A DNA stretch of 64,000 nucleotides from Planobispora longispora. GTDB lineage: Bacteria > Actinomycetota > Actinomycetes > Streptosporangiales > Streptosporangiaceae. Of the stretch, positions 7,528 through 55,423 are shown piece after piece. Both the position numbers and the translations under genes were made by a program. The notes under the pieces were generated by a model that saw only the letters and a list, made by a program, of their open reading frames with translations, was not told the origin of the DNA and made no database searches. The stretch lies in the NCBI RefSeq assembly GCF_016863135.1, contig NZ_BOOH01000051.1:1-64000 (forward strand), given 5' to 3'. Positions within the stretch are counted from its first letter, which is position 1; each line of letters starts with the position of its first letter.

Positions 7528-8433
7528 TCACTCCATGCAGGCCAGCCAGCGGAGGGGGTTGTCGTGGGTGATGAGGCGGACGGTCTCCTCGGCGACCCCG
7601 GCCTCGCGCAGCCGGGGCAGGAGGGTGCGGAACAGGTGGTTGTAGCCGGGCCCGCCGTACCGCTCGATCTCGGCGACCCGGGAGACGCCGCTGCTGAGCA
7701 GGAGCCGGTGGGCGTGGCCGGCCTCGATGAGGTCCAGGGTATCCCTGAGGCGGTCGCCGCTCAGAGAGGTGAGGCAGATGTAACCGCCCGCCTCGGCGAC
7801 CTTGCGGGGGAGGGCGGGGTCGCTCCCGGCGTCGGAGACGCTGATCCGGTGGGCGGGCAGCCCTTCGGACAGCAGGATCTCCAGCAGGGCCAGGCCGCCC
7901 CGGTGGTGGACGGCGACGGGCAGGCCGGAGGAGAGGGAGGCGCGGGCGGCGGCGGCCGCGCAGCGCTCCTCGAGCTTCGTCGGCTCCCCGCTCCAGGCGC
8001 CGATCTCACCGATCACGCCGGGCCGGGCGCTGGTGCCGTCCATGCCCTCGCCGATCTCGGCGAGGAGGTGCTGGGTGAGGACGTCCACGCCGGCGTCGAG
8101 CGCCCAGGAGGGGATGAACGGGGCGGCGAAGAAACCGGTCCCGGCGACCACGGAGACCCGGCTCCCCGCGGTGATCCTGGCCAGCGCCGAGGCGTCGCGG
8201 CCGGTGCCGATGGAGCTGAGCTCGACGATCAGGCTGAGGGCGTCGGACTGGCGCAGCCCGCGCAGCTCCGTGCTGACGGCCTGCTCCTCGTCGAGCCAGC
8301 GGTGCGGGTCGGACTCGATGCCGACCGCCCAGCGCAGGTCGTTGCGGAGATGCTCGCCGGGGAGGACGGCTCCCTCGATCGCGTCGAGCGCGACGGGGCC
8401 GGTAAGGGTTCGGACATGTGGAGCGTCGGGCAT
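7528..8433 (-). CDS. Phosphotriesterase-like protein lacking canonical metal ligands
   Basis: A 301-residue protein with the overall PTE (php) TIM-barrel layout. In the family the first strand carries HxH, strand 4 a bridging Lys, strands 5 and 6 a His each and strand 8 an Asp. Here the first motif reads LPGEHL (first His is Gly26), the bridging position reads VIGEIG (Glu), strand 6 reads RISVSDAG (no GH) and strand 8 reads LLSSGVS (no Asp). Only the strand-5 region (VAVHHRG) keeps histidines. This implies an altered or lost hydrolase activity. It is the first gene of a two-gene operon with the TIM-barrel isomerase. Confidence 0.72.
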   Translation of the reverse strand: MPDAPHVRTLTGPVALDAIEGAVLPGEHLRNDLRWAVGIESDPHRWLDEEQAVSTELRGLRQSDALSLIVELSSIGTGRDASALARITAGSRVSVVAGTGFFAAPFIPSWALDAGVDVLTQHLLAEIGEGMDGTSARPGVIGEIGAWSGEPTKLEERCAAAAARASLSSGLPVAVHHRGGLALLEILLSEGLPAHRISVSDAGSDPALPRKVAEAGGYICLTSLSGDRLRDTLDLIEAGHAHRLLLSSGVSRVAEIERYGGPGYNHLFRTLLPRLREAGVAEETVRLITHDNPLRWLACME

Positions 8434-8758: not shown

Positions 8759-11716
8759 ATGCGAAGAAGACTGGTCAGCGCGCTCGCCGCCGCGGCGGTG
8801 ACGTGCGCGGCGGTCGGCGCGGCCGTCACGGGACAGGCCGCGGCGGCCACCACCACGGCCGCCACGACCGCGGCCGCCGCCGAGACGAACGAGTGGAAGA
8901 ACGTCAGGATCGACGGCGGCGGGTTCGTGCCGGGGATCGTTTTCAACCAGACCGAGAAGAACCTCGTCTACGCCCGCACCGACATCGGCGGCGCCTACAG
9001 GTGGGACCAGGCGACCAAGACCTGGATCCCGCTGCTCGACTGGGTGGGCTGGGACAAGTGGGGCTACAACGGCGTGGTCAGCCTGGCCACCGACCCGGTG
9101 GAGACCGGCCGGGTCTACGTCGCCGCCGGGATGTACACCAACGACTGGGACCCCAACAAGGGCGCGATCCTGCGCTCGGCCGACAAGGGCAAGACCTGGC
9201 AGGCCACCGAGCTGCCGTTCAAGCTCGGCGGCAACATGCCGGGCCGGGGCATGGGTGAGCGGCTGGTCGTCGACCCCAACGACAACAGGGTCCTCTACCT
9301 GGGCGCGCCCGACGGCAACGGCCTGTGGCGCAGCACCGACAAGGGCGTCACCTGGGCCAAGGTGGCGAGCTTCCCCAACCCGGGGAACTACGCCCAGGAC
9401 CCGAACGACCCCAACGGCTACCTGAACCACCGGCCGGGCGTGGTCTGGGTGACCTTCGACCCGGCCTCGGCGACGGCGGGGCAGACGACGAAGAAGATCT
9501 ACGTCGGCGTGGCCGACAAGGAGAACACGGTCTACAGCTCCTCCGACGGCGGCGCCACCTGGTCCCGGGTCCCCGGGCAGCCGACCGGGTACATCGCGCA
9601 CAAGGGCGTGCTGGACCACAAGAGCGGCACCCTCTACATCGCCACCAGCGACACCGGCGGGCCGTACGACGGCGGCAAGGGCGACGTGTGGAAGCTGAAC
9701 ACCGCCACCGGGGCGTGGACGCAGATCAGCCCGGTCCCGTCCAGCTCGGCCGACGACTACTTCGGCTACAGCGGCCTGACGATCGACCGGCAGAACCCGA
9801 ACACGATCATGGTCGCCACCCAGATCTCCTGGTGGCCGGACGCCGTCTTCTTCCGCTCCACCGACGCCGGCGCGACCTGGACGCGGATCTGGGACTGGAG
9901 CTCCTACCCCAACCGGACCAAGCGCTACACGATGGACATCTCCTCCGCGCCGTGGCTCACCTTCGGGACGAACCCGCAGCCGCCGGAGGAGACGCCCAAG
10001 CTCGGCTGGATGAACGAGTCGCTGGAGATCGACCCGTTCGACTCCAACCGGATGATGTACGGCACCGGCGCGACGATCTACGGCACCGAGGACCTGAAGA
10101 AGTGGGACACCGGCGGGACGTTCACCATCAAGCCGATGGTGCAGGGCCTGGAGGAGACCGCGGTCCTCGACCTGATCAGCCCGCCCGTCGGCGCGCCGCT
10201 GGTCAGCGCCCTCGGCGACCTCGGCGGCTTCCGCCACGACGACCTCACCAAGGTCCCGCCGAAGATCTTCACCACCCCGGCCTTCACCTCGGCCACCAGC
10301 CTCGACTACGCCGAGGCCAACCCCTCGGTGATCGTCCGCGCGGGCAACTTCACCGACGCCGACCGGCCGAACGACAGCCACGTCGCCTTCTCCACCGACG
10401 GCGGCGCGAACTGGTTCCAGGGCACCGAGCCCGCCGGGATCAACGAGGGCGGCACCGTCGCGGCGGCGGCCGACGCCTCCCGCTTCGTCTGGGCGCCCAA
10501 GGGCGTGGCCGTGCACCACTCGGTGGGCTACGGCAACAGCTGGACCGCCTCCACCGGCATCCCGGCCGGCGCCGTGGTGGAGTCCGACCGGGTGAACGCC
10601 AGGAAGTTCTACGGCTTCAGCGCCGGGAAGTTCTACGCCAGCACCGACGGCGGCGCCACCTTCACCGCCACCGCCGCCACCGGCCTGCCCGCCGAGGGCA
10701 ACGTGAAGTTCAAGGCCGTGCCCGGCCACGAGGGCCACATCTGGCTCGCGGGCGGCGATCCCGCCCAGGGCGCGTCCGGCCTCTGGCGCTCCACCGACGG
10801 CGGCGCGTCCTTCACCAAGCTCTCCGGGATCACCCGCGGGGTGAACATCGGCTTCGGCAAGGCCGCCCCGGGCAAGAGCTACCACGCGCTGTACGCGGTC
10901 GCCACGATCGGCGGCGTGACCGGCGTCTTCCGCTCCGACGACACCGGCGCGACCTGGGTCCGGGTCAACGACGACCAGCACCAGTACGGCAACATGGGCG
11001 AGGCCCTGACCGGCGACCCCCGCGTCTACGGCCGCGTCTACCTCGGCACCAACGGCCGGGGCATCGTCTACGCCGACACCGGCGGCGACACCCCGCCGCC
11101 CCCGGACGACACCGTCCCGCCGTCCAAGCCCGGCAAGCCCGCCGCCTCGGCGATCACCTCGACCGGCGCCGCGCTGACCTGGACGGCCTCGACGGACAAC
11201 GAGGGCGTGGAGGGCTACGACGTCTACCGCGAGGCCGGGGCGACGGACGTGAAGGCGGGATCCTCCGCCGCCGCGTCGTTCACCCTCACCGGCCTGTCGG
11301 CCGACACCTCCTACACCTACTACGTCGTGGCCCGCGACGCCGCCGGCAACACCTCGGCCGCCTCCGACCCGGTCACCTTCACCACCGCCTCCGGCCCCGG
11401 CGGGGGAGAAGGGGGCTGCACCGCGACCTACAAGGTCACCGGCTCCTGGCCCGGCGGCTTCCAGAGTGAGGTGACGGTGAAGAACACCGGCGCCGCGGCC
11501 GTCTCCGGATGGACCGTCGCCTGGTCGTTCCCCGACGGCCAGAAGATCACCCAGCTCTGGAGCGGCACGCACACCCAGACCGGCGCGGACGTCACGGTCA
11601 AGAACGCCGCCTGGAACGGCGCGCTGAAGGCGGGCGCCTCCACGGCGTTCGGCTTCACCGGGACCCTGACGGGCGCCAACGGCGTCCCGGCCGCCGTCAC
11701 CTGCACCGCGAGCTGA
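8759..11716 (+). CDS. Secreted GH74 xyloglucanase with FN3 and CBM2 domains
   Basis: A 985-residue secreted endo-xyloglucanase. ATG 8759 is chosen over the longer frame from 8627 because GGAGGG lies about 10 bases upstream and a signal peptide (Arg-rich start, Ala-rich core to about residue 30) follows. A two-propeller GH74 domain spans about 42-775, with repeated sialidase-type DGGxTW turns. The family catalytic pair is present: base Asp75 in TDIGGAY and acid Asp487 in ALGDLGGF. An FN3 domain (about 782-880) and a CBM2 cellulose-binding domain (about 885-985) follow. It is a monocistronic plant-cell-wall enzyme with a strong downstream terminator. Confidence 0.95.
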   Translation: MRRRLVSALAAAAVTCAAVGAAVTGQAAAATTTAATTAAAAETNEWKNVRIDGGGFVPGIVFNQTEKNLVYARTDIGGAYRWDQATKTWIPLLDWVGWDKWGYNGVVSLATDPVETGRVYVAAGMYTNDWDPNKGAILRSADKGKTWQATELPFKLGGNMPGRGMGERLVVDPNDNRVLYLGAPDGNGLWRSTDKGVTWAKVASFPNPGNYAQDPNDPNGYLNHRPGVVWVTFDPASATAGQTTKKIYVGVADKENTVYSSSDGGATWSRVPGQPTGYIAHKGVLDHKSGTLYIATSDTGGPYDGGKGDVWKLNTATGAWTQISPVPSSSADDYFGYSGLTIDRQNPNTIMVATQISWWPDAVFFRSTDAGATWTRIWDWSSYPNRTKRYTMDISSAPWLTFGTNPQPPEETPKLGWMNESLEIDPFDSNRMMYGTGATIYGTEDLKKWDTGGTFTIKPMVQGLEETAVLDLISPPVGAPLVSALGDLGGFRHDDLTKVPPKIFTTPAFTSATSLDYAEANPSVIVRAGNFTDADRPNDSHVAFSTDGGANWFQGTEPAGINEGGTVAAAADASRFVWAPKGVAVHHSVGYGNSWTASTGIPAGAVVESDRVNARKFYGFSAGKFYASTDGGATFTATAATGLPAEGNVKFKAVPGHEGHIWLAGGDPAQGASGLWRSTDGGASFTKLSGITRGVNIGFGKAAPGKSYHALYAVATIGGVTGVFRSDDTGATWVRVNDDQHQYGNMGEALTGDPRVYGRVYLGTNGRGIVYADTGGDTPPPPDDTVPPSKPGKPAASAITSTGAALTWTASTDNEGVEGYDVYREAGATDVKAGSSAAASFTLTGLSADTSYTYYVVARDAAGNTSAASDPVTFTTASGPGGGEGGCTATYKVTGSWPGGFQSEVTVKNTGAAAVSGWTVAWSFPDGQKITQLWSGTHTQTGADVTVKNAAWNGALKAGASTAFGFTGTLTGANGVPAAVTCTAS

Positions 11717-44147: not shown

Positions 44148-44729
44148 TCAGACCGGGACGTTCCAGGAGAGGATGACCGGCTCGCCGTGCTCGAAGCCGA
44201 GACGGGAGTAGGTGCCGGTGTTCAGCCGGTAGAAACGGCCGGCCTCGGGCTCCTGGCCGAGCCAGCGGGCCGCCAGGACCCGCAGGAAGTGACCGTGGGC
44301 GACCAGGGCGACGTCGCCCGCGGCGGCCCTGGCCCGGTCGAGGACCCGGTCGGCGCGGGCCCCGACCTGCGCGGCGCTCTCCCCGGGGTGCTCGGCGTCG
44401 CCCGGGATCACCCCGTCGCGCCACAGGTACCAGCCGGCGCGGGTCTCGCGGATCGTCGCGGTGGTGATCCCCTCGTAGCCGCCGTAGTCCCACTCCCACA
44501 TGTCCGGATCGGTCGTGCGGCCGTCCAGCCCGGCGAGCTCGGCCGTCCTGCGGGCCCGCAGCGCGGGGCTGACCAGGACGAGGTCGAAGGCCCTGTCCTT
44601 GACGAGCGGGGCGAGCGCCCGCGCCTCGTCCTCGCCCTTGGCGGTGAGGGGCAGATCGGTGCGCCCCGTGTGCCGCCTGTCCCGGCTCCACTCGGTCTCG
44701 CCGTGCCGCAGCAGAATCATCTCGTTCAT
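44148..44729 (-). CDS. Histidine phosphatase (phosphoglycerate-mutase-like) family protein
   Basis: 193 residues. The RHG motif LLRHGETEWS near the N-terminus supplies the phosphorylated His. A central Glu (WEWDYGGYEG) and the second catalytic His (ALVAHGHFLRVLAARW) complete the site. Substrate unknown. It lies between the chemoreceptor and LLM genes, all leftward, with gaps of about 65-100 bp. Confidence 0.92.
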   Translation of the reverse strand: MNEMILLRHGETEWSRDRRHTGRTDLPLTAKGEDEARALAPLVKDRAFDLVLVSPALRARRTAELAGLDGRTTDPDMWEWDYGGYEGITTATIRETRAGWYLWRDGVIPGDAEHPGESAAQVGARADRVLDRARAAAGDVALVAHGHFLRVLAARWLGQEPEAGRFYRLNTGTYSRLGFEHGEPVILSWNVPV

Positions 44730-44796: not shown

Positions 44797-45711
44797 TCAG
44801 CGCCCCGCGAGCTCCTCCACGACCGGGATGAAGGCGTCGAGGTCCCGCTCGTGGTGGAGCACGAAGTACGACAGGTCGTGGGTGTCGCGCCAGTGCCGGA
44901 GCTTGTCCGCCACGTCCCGGCGGGTGCCGAGCAGGACCTGGGGGGTCTCGTCCTGCCGGGAGGAGTCTGCGGCGCTCCACGCCTCGCCCCGTCTGCGGAC
45001 GCCGAGCTGCTGGACGCTGGTGCCGAGCTCGATCGCGCCGTAGCGGTCCGCCGCGGCCCGCCGTACCAGATCGATCTTGGCGAGGAACGCGGGCAGGCCG
45101 CCGTCGGCCCCGTCGGGGCCGGTGCCGTCCGCCCTGACCCGCATGCCGAGATTGATCACGTCGGCCTCGCGGGCGGCGAGCCGGAGCACGCGCGGCCCGC
45201 CCCCGCCGAGCAGCAGCCGGGGGTGGGGGCGCTGGACCGGCTTGGGCTGCTGATCCAGCCCGTCGATCCGGTAGTGCTCGCCGTGGAAGGTGAACGGGCC
45301 CTCGCCCCAGAGCCCCTTCAGGACGGCGATCGCCTCGGCGAGCCGGTCCACCCGGGTCCCCGGAGGGTCGAGAGCCAGGCCCGCCGATGCGTAGTCGGCC
45401 GCCATCCAGCCGGTGCCCAGGCCGAGCTCCAGGCGGCCCGCCGAGAGCAGGTCGACGGTGGCCGCCTCCTTGGCGAGCACGGCCGGGTGCCGGAAGTCGT
45501 TGGCGAACACCAGGGTGCCGACCTTCAGCCGGCTGGTCGCGCAGGCCGCCGCGGTCATCGCCGCGACCGGCGCGAAGCGGGGGCCCACCAGGTGGTCGGG
45601 GACGAGCAGCACGTCGAACCCGGAGTCCTCCAGGCGGCGGGCCTTGTCCGCCCACTCTCCGGCGGAGGCGGCCTCCCTGACCACGGCGGCGAACCTGAAC
45701 GGCCGGTCCAT
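44797..45711 (-). CDS. LLM-class F420-dependent oxidoreductase
   Basis: A 304-residue luciferase-like TIM barrel (TIGR03621-type). N-terminal FRFAAVVREAASAGEWADKA, then DVLLVPDHLVG, LGTGWMAADYASAG and a C-terminal FVLHHERDLDAFIPVVEEL. Members use F420H2 or FMN for hydride transfer or monooxygenation. ATG 45711 lies 25 bp from a palindrome also found before the dioxygenase operon, which suggests a shared pathway and regulator. Confidence 0.9.
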   Translation of the reverse strand: MDRPFRFAAVVREAASAGEWADKARRLEDSGFDVLLVPDHLVGPRFAPVAAMTAAACATSRLKVGTLVFANDFRHPAVLAKEAATVDLLSAGRLELGLGTGWMAADYASAGLALDPPGTRVDRLAEAIAVLKGLWGEGPFTFHGEHYRIDGLDQQPKPVQRPHPRLLLGGGGPRVLRLAAREADVINLGMRVRADGTGPDGADGGLPAFLAKIDLVRRAAADRYGAIELGTSVQQLGVRRRGEAWSAADSSRQDETPQVLLGTRRDVADKLRHWRDTHDLSYFVLHHERDLDAFIPVVEELAGR

Positions 45712-45735: not shown

Positions 45736-45749
45736 ATCAAGCGCTTGGT
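45736..45749 (-). promoter_or_regulatory. TetR-type palindrome before the LLM gene
   Basis: ATCAAGCGCTTGGT fits AnCAAGnnCTTGnT, the consensus published for the KstR2 class of TetR regulators. It lies 25-38 bp upstream of the LLM start. Confidence 0.75.
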
Positions 45750-45807: not shown

Positions 45808-46491
45808 TCACGGAGCGGGCGCCGTCACGGCCGAGGGCGCGGGCCGGCGGAGCAGGGAGAGGGCGACGCCGCCCATGCCCGCGGTCAGGATCAGCCACGG
45901 CACCGCCACGACGACGTTGCCCATGCCGGCGAGCCAGGGGATCGGCAGGAGGATCGGGGCGGCGATCAGCGCTGCCGCGGCCCAGGTCGCGGCCGACCTG
46001 CCGAGCAGGGCGGCCACTCCGAGGAGCAGGAGGCCGAGCAGGCCGAGGAAGAAGGCGGAGCCGAGGAGGGCGATGGGCAGGTCGTTGACGTAGGCGTCCA
46101 TCAGCCTCGTGGTGACGGCGGTGTCGAGGCCGGCCCTGTTCGCGGCATAGAGGACGTCGTCGGAGTTGCCGCCGAAGGGGACCGCCAGGATGAAGGCGAG
46201 GATCATGCCCGCCAGCCCGAGTGTCGGGCGGCCCCGGCGGGCGACCTTGCTCACCGCGAAGAGCCCGGGGAGGAACAGGGCGGCGCTGAGGACGGCCAGC
46301 CAGGAGAACAGGGCGTAGCCGCCGATGTTCTCGGTGAAGTCCCGGACGTAGGCCTCGCCCTCGGCGGTGGCGTCGAAGGGGCTCAGCAGGATGGAGACGG
46401 TGACCAGCAGCGGCGCGAGGAACGCCGATGCGACCATGGCGTGGCGGGCGAAGGCGTCGGCGCCCGACCCGGGGGTGTCGAGGTTCGTCAT
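45808..46491 (-). CDS. Multi-pass membrane protein, unknown function
   Basis: 227 residues from ATG 46491 (MTNLDTPGSG); a slightly longer frame is possible. Five or six hydrophobic helices are visible, with an extracytoplasmic loop after the first (SPFDATAEGEAYVRDFTENIG). It resembles the general plan of DUF4386-like actinobacterial membrane proteins, but no named motif is certain. It stands between the LLM gene and the dioxygenase operon, on the LLM strand. Confidence 0.65.
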   Translation of the reverse strand: MTNLDTPGSGADAFARHAMVASAFLAPLLVTVSILLSPFDATAEGEAYVRDFTENIGGYALFSWLAVLSAALFLPGLFAVSKVARRGRPTLGLAGMILAFILAVPFGGNSDDVLYAANRAGLDTAVTTRLMDAYVNDLPIALLGSAFFLGLLGLLLLGVAALLGRSAATWAAAALIAAPILLPIPWLAGMGNVVVAVPWLILTAGMGGVALSLLRRPAPSAVTAPAP

Positions 46492-46703: not shown

Positions 46704-46717
46704 ACCAAGCGCTTGCT
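46704..46717 (+). promoter_or_regulatory. TetR-type palindrome before the dioxygenase operon
   Basis: ACCAAGCGCTTGCT fits AnCAAGnnCTTGnT, as at 45736. It sits 32-45 bp upstream of ATG 46749. The DNA before it (46528-46700) is G/C-rich with a repeated 20-bp GGGCGCGGCGGAACCCCCGC element and no other feature. Confidence 0.75.
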
Positions 46718-46748
46718 TTACGGGTGTGCGCGGTCCGACACTGAGCCC

Positions 46749-47525
46749 ATGGCTGACGACACCCCCGTCCGCGACGTGACCGACGACGAGGTCGCCTTCT
46801 TCCGGGACAACGGCTGGGTACGGCTGCCGCGCCTGGTCGACTCCGGCCACGTGACCGTGCTCCGGGACCGCGCGCTGGACTATCTCGCCGCGCGCCCCCG
46901 CACCGTCACCTCCCAGGTGGACCAGGCGTTCGGGCAGTCCAGGGACATCGCCGAGACCGACGGGCGCTTCCGGGACCTGGCCCTGGCCCCTCCGCTCGGC
47001 CGGGCGGCCGTCCGGCTGCTGCACGGGGTCGCCGGGGTGCGGGTGCAGGTGACGAACCTGCTGATCAAGGAACCGGGCGGGCACGGGGCCACCGAGTTCC
47101 ACCAGGACTTCCCGTGGATGCCCATGGACCGCTCGGCGATGCTCACACTCTGGCTCGCCCTGGTGGACGTGCCCGCGGACATGGGCTCCCTGCGGTTCTA
47201 CACCGGCTCTCACCGGCACGGCGTGCTCGGCCGCTCCTTCGCCCGCGACGGCGACGACCAGCTCAGCCAGCATCCCTGGCTCAAGGAGCTGGAGCTGTCC
47301 CCGCCGCTGGACCTGGCCGCCGGGGACGCGACCGTGCACCACGCGCTCACCGTGCACGGCGCCCCCGCCAACCACCGCGACACCCCCCGCGTGTCGTTCA
47401 CCGTCACCTACTTCGACGCCGACGCCCTCTACACCGGCACGCCGTACCGGCAGACCGACGACCTTGGCCTGACCGTCAACCGGCCGTTCGGGCACCCGAA
47501 GTTCCCGGTCGTCCCCCATGCCTGA
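46749..47525 (+). CDS. Phytanoyl-CoA dioxygenase (PhyH) family protein
   Basis: 258 residues from ATG 46749. Fe(II)/2-oxoglutarate oxygenase with the iron triad visible: His118 and Asp120 in EFHQDFPW and distal His203 in LTVHGAPAN, then the 2-oxoglutarate Arg in TPRVSFTVTY. The N-terminal VTDDEVAFFRDNGWVRLP is typical of PhyH proteins. Substrates of the family range from acyl-CoAs to small natural products. It is the first gene of a five-gene run, and its end overlaps the next gene by eight bases. Confidence 0.92.
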   Translation: MADDTPVRDVTDDEVAFFRDNGWVRLPRLVDSGHVTVLRDRALDYLAARPRTVTSQVDQAFGQSRDIAETDGRFRDLALAPPLGRAAVRLLHGVAGVRVQVTNLLIKEPGGHGATEFHQDFPWMPMDRSAMLTLWLALVDVPADMGSLRFYTGSHRHGVLGRSFARDGDDQLSQHPWLKELELSPPLDLAAGDATVHHALTVHGAPANHRDTPRVSFTVTYFDADALYTGTPYRQTDDLGLTVNRPFGHPKFPVVPHA

Positions 47526-48525
47526 GCGCGCCGCGGGCACCGGGAGCACCGGGAGCGTCGAGACCGTCGCGGGACCCGTGCGGGACCCGGGCGCGACGCT
47601 CATGCACGAGCACATCTTCGGGCTCAGCCCGGAGATCCTGTGGAACTGGCCGGACATCCCCGAGGGCTGGGACCTCGAACTGCGGGCTCGCGAGGCCGCC
47701 GACAAGCTGACCGAGCTGAAGGGCCACGGGATCGACACCATCGTGGACCTGACCGTCATCGGGCTCGGCCGCTACGTGCCCGCGGTGCAGCGGGTCGCCG
47801 AGCTGACCGAGGTCAACATCGTCGTCGCGACCGGGATCTACACCTACGACGCGCTCCCGCCCTACTTCGGCAACCGCGGCCCCGGCTCGCTGTTCGGCGG
47901 CCCCGACCGGCTGGCCGAGTTCTTCGTCCGGGACATCGCCGAGGGCATCGGCGACACCGGGGTGAAGGCGGGGATCCTCAAATGCGCCTCCGACCACCTG
48001 GGCATGACCGCCGGCTGCGAACGGGTCTTCCGCGCCGCCGCCCAGGCGCACCGGGCCACCGGCGTCCCGATCACGACCCACTCCCACAGCGCCTCGCGCG
48101 GCGGCCTGGAACAGCAGAAGCTGCTGGCCTCCGAGGGGGTGGACCTGAGCCGGGTGGTGATCGGCCACGCCGGCGACTCCACCGACCTGACCTACCTGGA
48201 AGAACTGATCGCGAACGGCTCCTATCTCGGCATGGACCGCTTCGGCATCAACACGATCAGCCCCTTCGAGGACCGGGTGGCGACGGTGGCGGCCCTGTGC
48301 GAGCGGGGCCACGCCGGGCGGATGGTCCTGTCCCACGACTCCTACTGCTTCAACGACCGCTTCGACCACGAGGTGGTACGGCGCCGCCACCCCGACTACC
48401 ACCTGCTGCACATCTCCCGGGACGTGCTCCCCGAGCTGCGCAGGAGGGGCGTGACCGAGGAGCAGATCCACCGGATGCTCGTCGCCAACCCCCGCGACAT
48501 CCTCACGCGGCGCGAGCCGTACTGA
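47518..48525 (+). CDS. Phosphotriesterase family metallohydrolase, intact metal site
   Basis: 335 residues. All binuclear-metal ligands of the PTE family can be located: His30 and His32 (LMHEH), bridging Lys155 (GILKC), His188 (TTHSHS), His217 (VIGHAGDS) and Asp274 (LSHDSY). Members hydrolyse lactones, phosphotriesters or amides; with the neighbouring oxygenases, a lactonase or ester role is plausible. It starts inside the end of the PhyH gene, so translation is coupled. Compare the ligand-poor paralogue at 7528-8433. Confidence 0.93.
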   Translation: MPERAAGTGSTGSVETVAGPVRDPGATLMHEHIFGLSPEILWNWPDIPEGWDLELRAREAADKLTELKGHGIDTIVDLTVIGLGRYVPAVQRVAELTEVNIVVATGIYTYDALPPYFGNRGPGSLFGGPDRLAEFFVRDIAEGIGDTGVKAGILKCASDHLGMTAGCERVFRAAAQAHRATGVPITTHSHSASRGGLEQQKLLASEGVDLSRVVIGHAGDSTDLTYLEELIANGSYLGMDRFGINTISPFEDRVATVAALCERGHAGRMVLSHDSYCFNDRFDHEVVRRRHPDYHLLHISRDVLPELRRRGVTEEQIHRMLVANPRDILTRREPY

Positions 48526-48553
48526 AGCCGTACCGAGCCCGAGAGGTCCATCC

Positions 48554-49753
48554 ATGATCGACGCCGATGACTTCGACGTCAGCGCGGCCTGGCACGTCGC
48601 CGCGCCGTACGACTTCCTGCGCCGGCTCCGACACGAGCGGCCGGTCTTCCGCAGCGAGCACCTGGGCGCCCACGTCCTGACCCGGTACGCCGACGTGCGC
48701 GCCGCCTACGGCGACCCGAAGCGCTTCTCCTCGGCGGGGTCGCTGACGATCTCCCGGAGCCTGTCCGAGGAGACCCGCCTCAAGCTGGGCGAGCACGGCT
48801 CGTTCCTGTCGAGCTTCGTGGCCAACGTGGACCCGCCGGTGCACACCCGGCTGCGCCGCTCGGTCTCGCGGGCCTTCACCCCGCGCGCGGTCGCGGCGAT
48901 GGAGCAGCGGTTCCGGGAGCTGAACGAGGACCTGCTCGACCGGGTGGCCCCGCGCGGCGGGGCGGACTTCGTCACCGAGATCGCACACGAGCCCTCGGCC
49001 AAGCTCACCGCCCGCTTCATCGGGGTTCCCGAGGAGGACGAGGAGTTCGTCAAGGAGCACGTGAAGGGCTGGTTCCAGCTGTTCCTGTCGCCGCAGCCGC
49101 CCGACCGGCAGCTCGCGCTGGCCGAGAGCTTCCTGGCCTACCTCGACTACGTCGACAGGCTCGTCGCCGCCCGCGCCCGCGACCCCCGCGACGACTTCAC
49201 CTCGCTGATGACCTCCCTGATCGGCACGGAGCTCTCGCACCGCGAGGTCGTCGAGCTGATCTCCACGATCCTGCTCGGCGGCAACGACACCGTGCCCAAC
49301 CAGCTCGGCAACAGCGTGCTGCGGCTGCTGCGCGAGGGCGCCTGGCCGGTGCCGCCGGAGCTGACCCGCAACGCGGTCGAGGAGTGCATGCGCATCGACG
49401 GCGCCAGCCTCGGCTCCTTCCGCTACGCCACCGCCGACATCGGGCTGCACGGGACGACGATCCCGGCCGGCGCCCTCTGCCTGCTGTCCACCGACTCCGC
49501 GGCCCACGACGAGACCGTCTTCGACGACCCCGAACGCTTCCGGATCGACCGCCCCAACGCCGACGCCCACATGACCCTCGGCTACGGCATCCACTTCTGC
49601 GTGGGCGCGGCGCTGGGCCGCCTCCAGCTCCGCACCGCCCTCGACGTCCTGGGCGAGCGCCTGCCCGGGCTGCGCCTGGTCTCCGGCGCGCCCGTCTCCT
49701 ACCGCACCTCGATCGTCGGCCGCGGCCTGACCGCCCTGCCCGTGGAGTGGTGA
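48554..49753 (+). CDS. Cytochrome P450
   Basis: 399 residues. I-helix LLGGNDTVPNQL (the usual acid-Thr pair is DT), K-helix ExxR replaced by the relaxed EECMRIDG, and heme loop GYGIHFCVGAALGRLQL with Cys349. The N-terminus is hydrophilic (soluble enzyme). Its TGA overlaps the ATG of the next SDR gene. There is no ferredoxin in the operon, so a partner is needed from elsewhere. Confidence 0.92.
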   Translation: MIDADDFDVSAAWHVAAPYDFLRRLRHERPVFRSEHLGAHVLTRYADVRAAYGDPKRFSSAGSLTISRSLSEETRLKLGEHGSFLSSFVANVDPPVHTRLRRSVSRAFTPRAVAAMEQRFRELNEDLLDRVAPRGGADFVTEIAHEPSAKLTARFIGVPEEDEEFVKEHVKGWFQLFLSPQPPDRQLALAESFLAYLDYVDRLVAARARDPRDDFTSLMTSLIGTELSHREVVELISTILLGGNDTVPNQLGNSVLRLLREGAWPVPPELTRNAVEECMRIDGASLGSFRYATADIGLHGTTIPAGALCLLSTDSAAHDETVFDDPERFRIDRPNADAHMTLGYGIHFCVGAALGRLQLRTALDVLGERLPGLRLVSGAPVSYRTSIVGRGLTALPVEW

Positions 49754-50559
49754 TGCGCTTCGACGGCAAGGTCGCGCTCGTCACCGGCGGGGGCTCGGGG
49801 ATCGGCGCGGCCACCGCGCACCGGCTGGCCGCCGAGGGCGCCCGCGTCGGGGTCGCCGACCTGCGGGTCGCGGGCGCGAGGTCGGTCGCCTCGGCGATCA
49901 GATCCGCGGGCGGTACGGCGACCGCGCTCCACTGCGACGTGTCCGAGGAGGAGGCGGTGGCGGCGGCCGTCACCGAGCTGACGGCCTCCTTCGGGCGGCT
50001 GGACGTGCTGCACTCCAACGCCGCCTGCCTGGACCGCGAGGTCTACGGCAGGGACCAGGACCTGCTCGACATGGACGTGGAGGTCTGGGACCGGACGATG
50101 GCGGTCAACCTGCGCGGCGCGATGCTCACGGTCAAGCACGCGGTCCCGGCGATGGCCGACGGCGGCGCGATCGTGCTGACCTCCTCGGTCTCGGCCCTGG
50201 TCGGGGACAGCGACCACGCGGCCTACGGGGCCTCCAAGGCGGCGCTGGTGGGATTCGTCCGGTACGTGGCGACGATGTACGGCTCCCGCGGCGTCCGGTG
50301 CAACGCGGTGGCCCCCGGCCTGGTCCTGACCGACCTGGCCCGGGCCGTGATGACGCCGGAGCGGCTCGCCGAGAAGGCGGCCGAGCGCGTCCTTCCGTGG
50401 GCGGCCGAGCCGGGCGACGTGGCCGCCCTCGTCGCCTTCCTCGCCTCCGACGAGGCGCGCTGCGTCACCGGGCAGACGATCGTCGTCGACGGCGGCACCA
50501 CCGCGCACCGCCCCGAACACGCGATCAGGGCGTGGTCCCGTGAGAAGCTGGACATGTGA
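49753..50559 (+). CDS. SDR family oxidoreductase
   Basis: 268 residues from ATG 49753, which overlaps the P450 stop (TGATG). Classical SDR: TGGGSGIG cofactor loop, the acidic ADLR end of strand 2 pointing to NAD, SNAA in place of NNAG, catalytic Ser in TSSVSALVG, YGASKAALVG (intact Tyr and Lys) and a closing TGQTIVVDGG. Probably oxidises an alcohol produced by the P450 or dioxygenase. Confidence 0.93.
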   Translation: MRFDGKVALVTGGGSGIGAATAHRLAAEGARVGVADLRVAGARSVASAIRSAGGTATALHCDVSEEEAVAAAVTELTASFGRLDVLHSNAACLDREVYGRDQDLLDMDVEVWDRTMAVNLRGAMLTVKHAVPAMADGGAIVLTSSVSALVGDSDHAAYGASKAALVGFVRYVATMYGSRGVRCNAVAPGLVLTDLARAVMTPERLAEKAAERVLPWAAEPGDVAALVAFLASDEARCVTGQTIVVDGGTTAHRPEHAIRAWSREKLDM

Positions 50560-51410
50560 CGATATCTGTTGGCCTGGTGGGCGCCGGGCCCTGGGCGGAG
50601 AAGGTGCACGCGCCGGCGCTGACCGCCGGGCCCCACACGCGGCTGGCCGGAGTGTGGGCTCGCAGACCCGAGGCGGCGGCCCGGCTGGGCGCCCCGGTCT
50701 TCGAACGGATAGAGCAGCTCTTCGACGCCTGCGAGGCGGTGGTCTTCTCGGTGCCGCCCGCGGTCCAGGCGGAGCTGGGGGTCATGGCGGCCAAGGCGGG
50801 CAAGGCGCTGCTGCTGGAGAAGCCGCTCGCGGCCGACCTGGACGGCGCCCGGCGGCTCGCCGACGCGGCGGGGGAGGCCGGGGTGGTCTCGCAGATGTGC
50901 CTGACCTGGCGCTACTCGGCGGCCGTCCGGGCGTTCCTGGCGCGGGTCTCGGCCATCGAGCCGTTCGGCGGGCACGCCTCCAGCATCTCCGGCGCCATGC
51001 TCGGCGGTGACTTCGCCAGCCCGTGGCGGCTGGAGCGCGGCGCGATCCTCGACGTCGGCCCGCACATGATCGACATGCTGGACGCCGCGCTCGGCGCGGT
51101 CGTCGGGGTGCGCGCCCACGGCAACCCGACGGGCTGGGTCGGCCTCCTGCTGGAGCACGAGACCGGCGCGGTCAGCGAGGCCTCGCTGTGCCTGAGCGCG
51201 CCGGGGCGGACGCCTCCGTCCCGGGTGGACGTCTACGGCAGGCTCGGCGGAGAGTCCGTCGACAGGGACTCCCTGGGCCCCGACGTCTTCGCCACGATGC
51301 TCGCCGAGTTCGCCGAGGCCGTCCGCACCGGCGGCGGCCACCCCCTGGACGCCGCCCACGGCCTGCGCCTGCAGGGCATCATCGCCGCCGCCGAGGACCA
51401 GCTCGGTTAG
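50556..51410 (+). CDS. Gfo/Idh/MocA family oxidoreductase
   Basis: 284 residues from GTG 50556, overlapping the SDR end by four bases (GTGA). The Rossmann start VGLVGAGPWAEKVHAPALT, the EKPLA motif (LLLEKPLAADLDGARRLADA) and a C-terminal beta-sheet domain (GAILDVGPHMIDMLDAALG) are typical, but the protein is about 50 residues shorter than average. Last gene of the run; the redox substrate may be a sugar or another cyclic alcohol. Confidence 0.9.
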   Translation: MTISVGLVGAGPWAEKVHAPALTAGPHTRLAGVWARRPEAAARLGAPVFERIEQLFDACEAVVFSVPPAVQAELGVMAAKAGKALLLEKPLAADLDGARRLADAAGEAGVVSQMCLTWRYSAAVRAFLARVSAIEPFGGHASSISGAMLGGDFASPWRLERGAILDVGPHMIDMLDAALGAVVGVRAHGNPTGWVGLLLEHETGAVSEASLCLSAPGRTPPSRVDVYGRLGGESVDRDSLGPDVFATMLAEFAEAVRTGGGHPLDAAHGLRLQGIIAAAEDQLG

Positions 51411-54367: not shown

Positions 54368-55423
54368 TCAGGCGGATTCGCGGACGACGAGGGAGGGTTC
54401 GAAGATGACGGAGGTCGGCTGGCGGTCCGGCTCTTCGATGTGGGCCAGCAGGAGGCGGGCCATCTCGGCGGCCATGTCCTCCACGGGGTGGCGGATGGTG
54501 GTGAGCGGCGGACGGCAGGCGAGGGCGGCGCTGCTGTCGTCGAAGCCGACCACGGCGATGTCCTCGGGCACCCGGCGGTCGTGGTGCCGCAGGACCATGA
54601 GGGCGGCCTGGGCCATCACGTCGTTGGCGACGAAGACGCCGTCGAGGTCGGGCTGTTCGGCCAGGAGGCGCTCCATGGCCGCCTCGCCGCTGGGATAGGT
54701 GAACCGTCCCTCGACGCACGGGATGTAGGGGTGGCCGTGCACCGCCATCGCGTCCCGGAAGCCGGCCAGGCGGTCCTGGCTGGCGGGGACGGCGAGGGGG
54801 CCGGAGATGGTGGCGATCCGCCTGCAGCCCCGGGCGACGAGGTGGTCGGCGGCGAGCTTGGCGCCGGCCCGGTGCTGGACGTCGACGTAGCTGATCGGGA
54901 GCGGCTCGGGGGGCCTGGCGAAGAGCACGGCCGGCAGCCCCGCGTCGACGAGCATGCGGGGGAGCGGGTCGTCGGCGTTGGTGGAGACGAGCACGGCCCC
55001 GTCGGCGTTGCCCTGCCGCAGGTAGGTGAGCACCTGGGCGCGGGTCTCGTCGGTCTCGGCGAACATCAGGATCGGGTGCACGCCGCGGGGGCGGAGGAAG
55101 CCGACGATGCCGCCCGCCACCCGGCCGAAGAACGGGTCGGCGAAGACCTGACCGGGGAAGGGGTCCTCCCCGGTCTCGCCGCCCGCACCGGAGACGACCA
55201 GGGCGATCGAGCCGGTGCGGCGGGTGACGAGGGATCGGGCCGCCTGGTTGGGGACGTAGCCGGTGGCCGCGATGGCCTGCCGGACCGCCTCCTGGATGGC
55301 GGGGTCGACGTTGCGGATGCCGTTGATCACACGGGAGACGGTGGCGCGGGAGACGCCCGCCGCCCGGGCCACGTCCTCCAGGGTGGGGGATGATCCCGAT
55401 GACGGCGGGAGACCTTCGCTCAT
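54368..55423 (-). CDS. LacI-family repressor of the glucoside regulon
   Basis: 351 residues. The HTH and hinge (TLEDVARAAGVSRATVSRVI, then ATGYVPNQAARSLVTRRTGS) precede a periplasmic-binding-type sugar domain (about 70-345) ending AVVGFDDSSAALACRPPLTT. A 14-bp GGAGAGCGCTCTCC palindrome lies 21-34 bp before its start, so it probably represses itself. The same palindrome stands before the adjacent GH3 gene and two sugar importers. It is CebR/BglR-like in context; the inducer is likely a beta-glucoside. Confidence 0.92.
   Translation of the reverse strand: MSEGLPPSSGSSPTLEDVARAAGVSRATVSRVINGIRNVDPAIQEAVRQAIAATGYVPNQAARSLVTRRTGSIALVVSGAGGETGEDPFPGQVFADPFFGRVAGGIVGFLRPRGVHPILMFAETDETRAQVLTYLRQGNADGAVLVSTNADDPLPRMLVDAGLPAVLFARPPEPLPISYVDVQHRAGAKLAADHLVARGCRRIATISGPLAVPASQDRLAGFRDAMAVHGHPYIPCVEGRFTYPSGEAAMERLLAEQPDLDGVFVANDVMAQAALMVLRHHDRRVPEDIAVVGFDDSSAALACRPPLTTIRHPVEDMAAEMARLLLAHIEEPDRQPTSVIFEPSLVVRESA

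Follow-up and report, generated by a model that had tools for sequence, protein, structure and literature searches.

A putative KstR2-controlled steroid-catabolic module of Streptosporangiales that includes a phosphotriesterase-like hydrolase

What is the function of a tightly packed run of oxidation genes in which no pathway is recognized? Such a run lies in a 64,000-nucleotide stretch of contig NZ_BOOH01000051.1 (the whole stretch analysed, hereafter the window), where five genes follow one another head to tail on the plus strand: a PhyH-type Fe(II)/2-oxoglutarate oxygenase resembling SnoK and SnoN (46749-47525; Pfam PhyH, 79.7 bits), a metal hydrolase of the phosphotriesterase (PTE) family and of the phosphotriesterase-like lactonase (PLL) type (47518-48525; Pfam PTE, 321 bits), a cytochrome P450 (48554-49753; Pfam p450, 75 bits), a short-chain dehydrogenase (SDR; 49753-50559; adh_short_C2, 226 bits) and a Gfo/Idh/MocA oxidoreductase (Gfo; 50556-51410; GFO_IDH_MocA, 64 bits). 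An initial annotation had named these families, and all five are confirmed by Pfam matches above cut-off; the positions it gave are correct too, as are the overlaps of 8 bases (PhyH and PTE), 1 base (P450 and SDR) and 4 bases (SDR and Gfo) and the gap of 28 bp between PTE and P450. It started the operon at 46704, which is the first base of an operator upstream of PhyH, and it mentioned neither the two operators of the locus nor a divergent, co-conserved gene for a luciferase-like protein. With these added, the sequence suggests that the locus is probably a steroid-catabolic module of Streptosporangiales under the control of KstR2, in which the luciferase-like gene diverges from PhyH-PTE-P450(-SDR), the whole being set between a histidine-phosphatase gene and the Gfo gene.

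The first operator, ACCAAGCGCTTGCT (46704-46717), lies 31 bp upstream of the PhyH start and fits the pattern AnCAAGnnCTTGnT, which is the KstR2 motif given by Kendall et al. 2010 (PMC3068626; this and the other papers cited are drawn on in excerpt); the same 14-mer is found inside the KstR2 site Rv3557c/Rv3558, positive in the electrophoretic mobility shift assay (PMC3068626). The second, ATCAAGCGCTTGGT (45736-45749), is situated 24 bp upstream of the luciferase-like gene (44797-45711, minus strand). Both match the pattern perfectly.

Are these sites a property of the module or of this one chromosome? We read 79 loci of PTE relatives, the best 80 having been kept from 184 candidates. In a sample of 150 related genomes, PTE identities drop from 72% to 56% with none between, so that an orthologue cut-off placed in this gap is not arbitrary; the 62 loci with a PTE identity of at least 71% form the orthologous set, and the remaining 17, with other PTEs (about 50 to 58% identity), the outgroup. 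When the 220 bp upstream of each gene are considered, 58 of the 62 orthologous loci have an operator for PhyH, the others being L047 (which has a variant), L053, L055 and L058, and 43 of the 56 loci with a luciferase-like gene have one for that gene, a single site often being shared by the divergent genes. One further site away from both genes was found in the 965,033 bases of the 62 loci, and none with the reversed pattern; the outgroup loci contain no operator in 253,825 bases. This further site is the only operator of the Planotetraspora locus L055, where it precedes another gene for a luciferase-like protein (9001-9893, minus strand), not that of the module but close to it. The operators would place these genes in a KstR2-type steroid regulon, membership of which we regard as very probable, and the earlier statement that no recognized pathway is involved is not supported.

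The rest of the regulon was sought in the window's genome (8.84 Mb), where the pattern AnCAAGnnCTTGnT occurs nine times, the two sites of the module included; with a CG centre, there are eight sites versus none for the reversed pattern. All seven places outside the module were read. Operators precede a CoA ligase like FadD4, after which come ChsH2-like and lipid-transfer genes, a ligase similar to steroid-22-oyl-CoA synthetase (680 bits, below the cut-off of 900), a gene of the Rv3169 family, a lipid-transfer/DUF35 pair (on whose other side an acyl-CoA dehydrogenase gene lies about 0.8 kb off), CYP125 (525 bits to CYP125MRCA, 364 to M. tuberculosis CYP125), and a DapB-like gene with a cholesterol oxidase gene about 0.8 kb beyond (L132, 9026-12552; 754 bits to 1coy). 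The seventh place adjoins a heparinase-like gene and may be a chance occurrence. The contig of CYP125 also carries genes for a steroid 3-ketoacyl-CoA thiolase (641 bits, cut-off 515), a lipid-transfer protein (708 bits, cut-off 469) and a FadD17-like ligase, and two acyl-CoA dehydrogenase (ACAD)-like frames, one with 200 bits to a pimeloyl-CoA dehydrogenase model and the other without a match at 1e-25; its ChsH2- and ChsH1-like frames, which have no NCBIfam match at 1e-25, we name from resemblance. CYP125 and the steroid 3-ketoacyl-CoA thiolase, the pair by which we judged sterol side-chain degradation, are thus both present in this genome. The initial annotation had noted that no CoA ligase is present; this is correct for the operon, but other parts of the genome hold CoA ligase genes with an operator upstream, and a ligase gene follows PTE in Dactylosporangium. 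A KstR2 orthologue is also encoded (L145, 1195-1884), with 187 bits to 2ibd and about 170 bits to the KstR2 structures 4w1u and 4w97.

Three observations can be added on operator places here and in other genomes. A protein of the Rv3169 family is encoded in L129 (about 9042-10151; 437.8 bits, cut-off 150), and in three genomes (L129, L161, L173) a KstR2-type operator stands immediately before a gene of this family, which links an uncharacterized family to the same operator and hence to the steroid regulon. L160 (3984-7216) likewise has a DapB-like gene preceded by an operator, here with a GMC oxidoreductase where the cholesterol oxidase stands in L132. On the CYP125 contig, a KstR-like TetR gene is preceded by a KstR-like palindrome, AGAACACGTT (L133, 15023-15210), so that KstR-like and KstR2-type operators coexist there.

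Over 150 related genomes, CG-centred operators average 6.2 in the 23 genomes that contain the module and 0.83 in the 127 others (Mann-Whitney p of about 1e-14, not corrected for relatedness), some module genomes holding only two. To judge by identities, the window's genome (G000), G095 and G140 are probably Planobispora, Planomonospora and Nonomuraea. We read 18 stretches, six each in G140, G103 and G027, selected for operator centres that are CG or nearly so; they cover 6 of 14, 6 of 7 and 7 of 9 operator places outside the module, respectively. Homologues (at least 60% identity) of regulon genes of the window's genome, or of kstR2, are present in all six stretches read in G140 and in five of the six in G027. 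In these three genomes, which represent three other genera, kstR2 itself has a perfect operator upstream, at 86 bp in G140, 168 bp in G103 and 97 bp in G027. Beside kstR2 in G140 lies a PRK07801 thiolase, and a PRK07831 SDR follows an ACAD; we take these to be of the fadA6 and ipdF families.

Taken together, the 14 bp operator, the orthologous TetR repressor, the sterol side-chain genes of the genome and the acyl-CoA chemistry liken the system to the KstR2 regulon of mycobacteria and rhodococci, which serves catabolism of the cholesterol C/D rings and of the compound HIP, and for which an SDR gene, ipdABC, fadA6, ipdF, echA20, fadE and fadD3 are named (PMC3068626, PMC5380842). It differs in content: we found no P450, PhyH, PTE or luciferase-like gene in the excerpts of these two papers, whereas here all four are under the operator, as is CYP125. 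The side-chain genes (CYP125 and the FadA5-type thiolase, ChsH and Ltp2 genes) are in the same genome, and CYP125 is under the same operator, but they are located on another contig than the module.

A steroid-catabolic role of the module is quite likely in our view, but several points weigh against it. With the plain pattern, the nine sites of the window's genome compare with five for the reversed control, and its own kstR2 is preceded only by a site with two mismatches. The cholesterol oxidase gene reaches only 91 bits with NCBIfam ChoxAB, the sole cholesterol oxidase model matched (cut-off 850). Of the classical KstR2 targets ipdA, ipdB, ipdC, echA20 and fadD3, none was recognized in the genes inspected next to the sites; the search for them did not extend to the whole genome. 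In G103, only one of the six sites read adjoins a homologue of the regulon of the window's genome (kstR2), and some genomes without the module hold several sites, up to six, which indicates that the regulon is wider than the module. Two Dactylosporangium loci (L053, L058) have the PhyH-PTE pair without a KstR2-type operator, and in L053 a different, divergent TetR gene adjoins it. Many of the 62 loci and of the 23 module genomes represent species that are related or probably identical, so that the counts are of non-independent events. Finally, no ring-cleavage dioxygenase of the HsaC/BphC type was detected in the window's genome, where the best TIGR03213 score is 71 bits (one model, by which a divergent enzyme could be missed), nor any above 75 bits in G000, G095 or G140. 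The best scores are 296 in G103, 197 in G027 and 360 in G131, which lacks the module, and none of eight genomes reached the cut-off of 366. The textbook 9,10-seco route may accordingly be partly missing, or else the substrate may differ or not be a whole sterol. A look for Rieske and FAD motifs on contig C62 and parts of C34 flagged none; given crude patterns and partial contigs, nothing is concluded from it.

The question then arises as to whether the regulator could have been re-used, a KstR2-family protein governing the breakdown of a methyl-branched or terpenoid substrate (a phytanyl-type lipid, a hopanoid or a diterpenoid) attacked by PhyH, the P450 and CYP125-like enzymes. The dioxygenase result in G000, G095 and G140 fits this scenario, as does the failure to identify the classical C/D-ring genes at the sites examined; moreover, although CYP125 structures outscore CYP124, the latter, by its title an omega-hydroxylase of methyl-branched lipids, is the next family. 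What speaks against such a substrate, however, is the company that CYP125 keeps on its contig, namely the above-cut-off steroid 3-ketoacyl-CoA thiolase, the ACAD-like, ChsH-like and lipid-transfer genes and the KstR-like regulator, as well as the cholesterol oxidase gene near an operator. We consider this explanation improbable, if worth keeping in mind.

Which genes, then, make up the steroid module? The initial annotation had assigned all five genes to one pathway on the strength of their overlaps, and had proposed a search for conserved neighbourhoods of PTE with PhyH. That pair turned out to be conserved in all 62 orthologous loci. P450 is found in 60 of them, in 59 cases at most 86 bp after PTE and several kb away in L055; the luciferase-like gene is found in 56, SDR in 41 and Gfo in 42 (matches for P450 and the luciferase-like gene were listed at E-values of 1e-90 and 1e-80, set before the runs, weaker ones being left out). 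In the 17 outgroup loci, no match to the window's PhyH, P450, luciferase-like or Gfo genes appeared at an E-value of 1e-10, and there were weak SDR matches in three: unlike these other PTEs, the window-type PTE is a fixed partner of PhyH and mostly of P450. Among the 150 related genomes, the 23 with an orthologue of PTE are precisely those with orthologues of PhyH, P450 and the luciferase-like gene, and in all 23 these genes are no more than 10 kb from PTE. A further sign that the luciferase-like gene belongs to the module comes from L055, where it is co-directional with PhyH and PTE, with less than 20 bp between its end and PhyH. No P450 orthologue was found in the Dactylosporangium loci L053 and L058, and an AMP-binding ligase gene is present there within about 15 bp after PTE (L053, 2546-6532, and L058). 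A class-wide search for PhyH at an E-value of 1e-35 gave 5 of 394 genomes, in two genera, and added little.

The Gfo gene behaves differently. Its orthologue is found in 54 of the 150 genomes, 37 of which lack the module (at least 66% identity), and it lies within 10 kb of PTE in only 13 of the 23 module genomes, or 15 when the copies with 56 to 61% identity in G075 and G103 are counted. We read seven Gfo regions from genomes without the module (L134-L140). A BtuF-like gene is on one side of Gfo in all seven, as it is downstream of the module in many relatives, and a histidine-phosphatase gene is directly on the other side in four (L135, L136, L137, L138), none being called in L134, L139 and L140; nothing in the seven regions matched the module genes. 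Four of these seven loci belong to a single genus, g6, of which one genome (G071) has the module. The left flank of the module in the window is likewise a histidine-phosphatase gene (44148-44729, minus strand). PhyH, PTE, P450, the luciferase-like gene and SDR are therefore a block set between resident genes, gained or lost together, in which SDR is a frequent but non-universal member and the luciferase-like gene a core one. That the five genes including Gfo form one dedicated pathway could be argued from the tight overlaps in the window and from the 42 loci with Gfo. The gap between the aligned ends of SDR and Gfo is usually wide, however (median 87 bp in 31 loci), so that the 4 base overlap is a local feature, and with the distribution and surroundings of Gfo just described we hold the five-gene pathway to be very unlikely and reject Gfo as a core pathway gene; it is a resident flanking gene, probably outside the pathway. 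What remains of the proposal is that PhyH, PTE, P450 and probably SDR form one unit by their conserved order, the first three sharing with the luciferase-like gene the profile of 23 genomes. Gene-tree likeness, measured by pairwise distances, was of no help in defining the module: correlations were 0.71 to 0.85 for all 15 pairs, and as Gfo correlates like the rest, they reflect mostly joint inheritance.

What could the enzymes of the module do? The metal-site positions of PTE (HxH, Lys, two His and Asp) are conserved in all 62 orthologues, one His position being a gap of the pairwise alignment in four, and the Tyr and Arg of PLLs are present in all 62. The HxD...H and R of PhyH are conserved in 62 of 62 orthologues, and the Cys, the ExxR and the I-helix DT of P450 in 60 of 60. 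We take these residues to be the metal ligands of PTE and the PLL-typical Tyr and Arg, the iron triad and 2-oxoglutarate Arg of PhyH, and the catalytic residues of P450. The best solved relatives of PTE are the M. tuberculosis PHP 4if2 (411 bits, 58% identity), VmoLac and SsoPox, lactonases with which it shares the metal site as well as the Tyr and Arg (pLDDT of the predicted model, 76), and a lactonase role, suggested by this likeness, is somewhat more probable than not. Organophosphate detoxification was set aside as a role for PTE, the PLL Tyr and Arg being present in all 62 orthologues. The AMP-binding ligase gene straight after PTE in Dactylosporangium would suit a sequence of lactone opening and activation of the resulting acid. 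The luciferase-like protein scores above the curated cut-off of TIGR03621 (284.9 bits versus 213.15) and is predicted to be an F420-dependent oxidoreductase. No solved structure comes close to the P450 of the module (174 bits at best); between this P450 and the CYP125 of the same genome, identity is 31%.

The closest solved relatives of PhyH, in sequence as in predicted fold (pLDDT 80), are SnoK (94 bits, about 28% identity) and SnoN, so that PhyH need not act on CoA esters. In G071 (C144, 10195-11016), the PhyH orthologue consists of two adjoining matches in one open frame and may hold an insertion. SnoK and SnoN are 2-oxoglutarate oxygenases of nogalamycin biosynthesis, and they could suggest that the module is the tailoring set of a secondary-metabolite cluster. 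The gene context differs, however: no core synthase is found among the Pfam-identified neighbours (no systematic search for one was made), and the module stands in conserved chromosomal synteny in many species and carries KstR2-type operators, which makes a tailoring set highly improbable. Equally improbable is an accidental steroid link, in which the palindrome, whose form AAGCGCTT in our judgement resembles LacI-type operators, would belong to another regulator such as the nearby gene 54368-55423 (LacI family, as we judge from its sequence): that gene is grouped in only 4 of 63 clustered sequences (the 62 loci and the window) versus an operator in 58 of 62 loci, and kstR2 has the same operator in three other genomes, so that we tend to dismiss this idea.

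Returning to the steroid module, we infer repression by KstR2, a steroid substrate, an order of steps and a lactonase role of PTE, which would combine as follows. Sterol degradation would yield a CoA thioester that lifts KstR2 from ACCAAGCGCTTGCT-type operators; in known species, the effector is HIP-CoA (PMC5380842). P450 and the 2-oxoglutarate oxygenase would then hydroxylate a steroid-derived ring fragment, and SDR and the F420 enzyme would tune the oxidation state of the oxygen functions thus introduced. If a lactone forms between a hydroxyl and a carboxyl, the PLL-type hydrolase would open it, giving a hydroxy acid open to activation by a CoA ligase. As to the substrate of PTE, HIL, the delta-lactone of 5-hydroxy-HIP and presumably identical with sitolactone, is a tentative guess with less than an even chance of being right. 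It is a natural candidate because it belongs to the pathway stage under KstR2 control in known species, and it has been prepared as a compound of the HIP stage (PMC3161971). A bolder scheme, which we think doubtful, is an alternative aerobic opening of steroid rings in G000, G095 and G140, where no HsaC-type dioxygenase was detected, by which hydroxyls and ketones made by the oxygenases would be turned into a lactone that the PLL-type hydrolase opens, the luciferase-like enzyme possibly acting as a Baeyer-Villiger enzyme; if true, lactone-based ring opening would be an aerobic steroid route distinct from the known meta-cleavage and IpdAB-type steps.

The assignment would give anonymous genes for oxidation enzymes a testable place in a known regulon, and a phosphotriesterase-like lactonase a possible metabolic job. 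KstR2-governed sterol catabolism would also seem to reach into Streptosporangiales, there with enzymes that we did not find in the excerpts of the mycobacterial and rhodococcal regulon texts. A 2016 survey of steroid degraders names Thermomonospora, and its main text, as excerpted, contains no word beginning with Streptosporang or Actinomadura (PMC4810484); in the open-licence literature of PubMed Central, we found no description of such a module, nor of KstR2 together with a phosphotriesterase. Sitolactone is listed as a product among industrial steroid synthons (PMC5962712), for which a lactonase acting on HIL-type lactones could matter.

Some minor features of the window complete the picture. 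A scan for sigma-70 promoters and terminators found none, which at this G+C content tells us nothing. Among named relatives of the window's PTE, those of three Planobispora species are closest (94 to 97% identity), and the host is accordingly a Planobispora-like member of Streptosporangiaceae. A second PTE-family gene (7543-8307, minus strand) is 29% identical to that at 47518-48525; several metal-ligand positions are missing from the alignment, and the product may be catalytically dead. It was probably in contrast to this gene that the initial annotation called the PTE of the operon intact. Between the two operators lies a gene for an unclassified predicted protein (45808-46482, minus strand), without a Pfam or NCBIfam match, relatives of which are found with 51 to 59% identity in 10 of the 79 loci.

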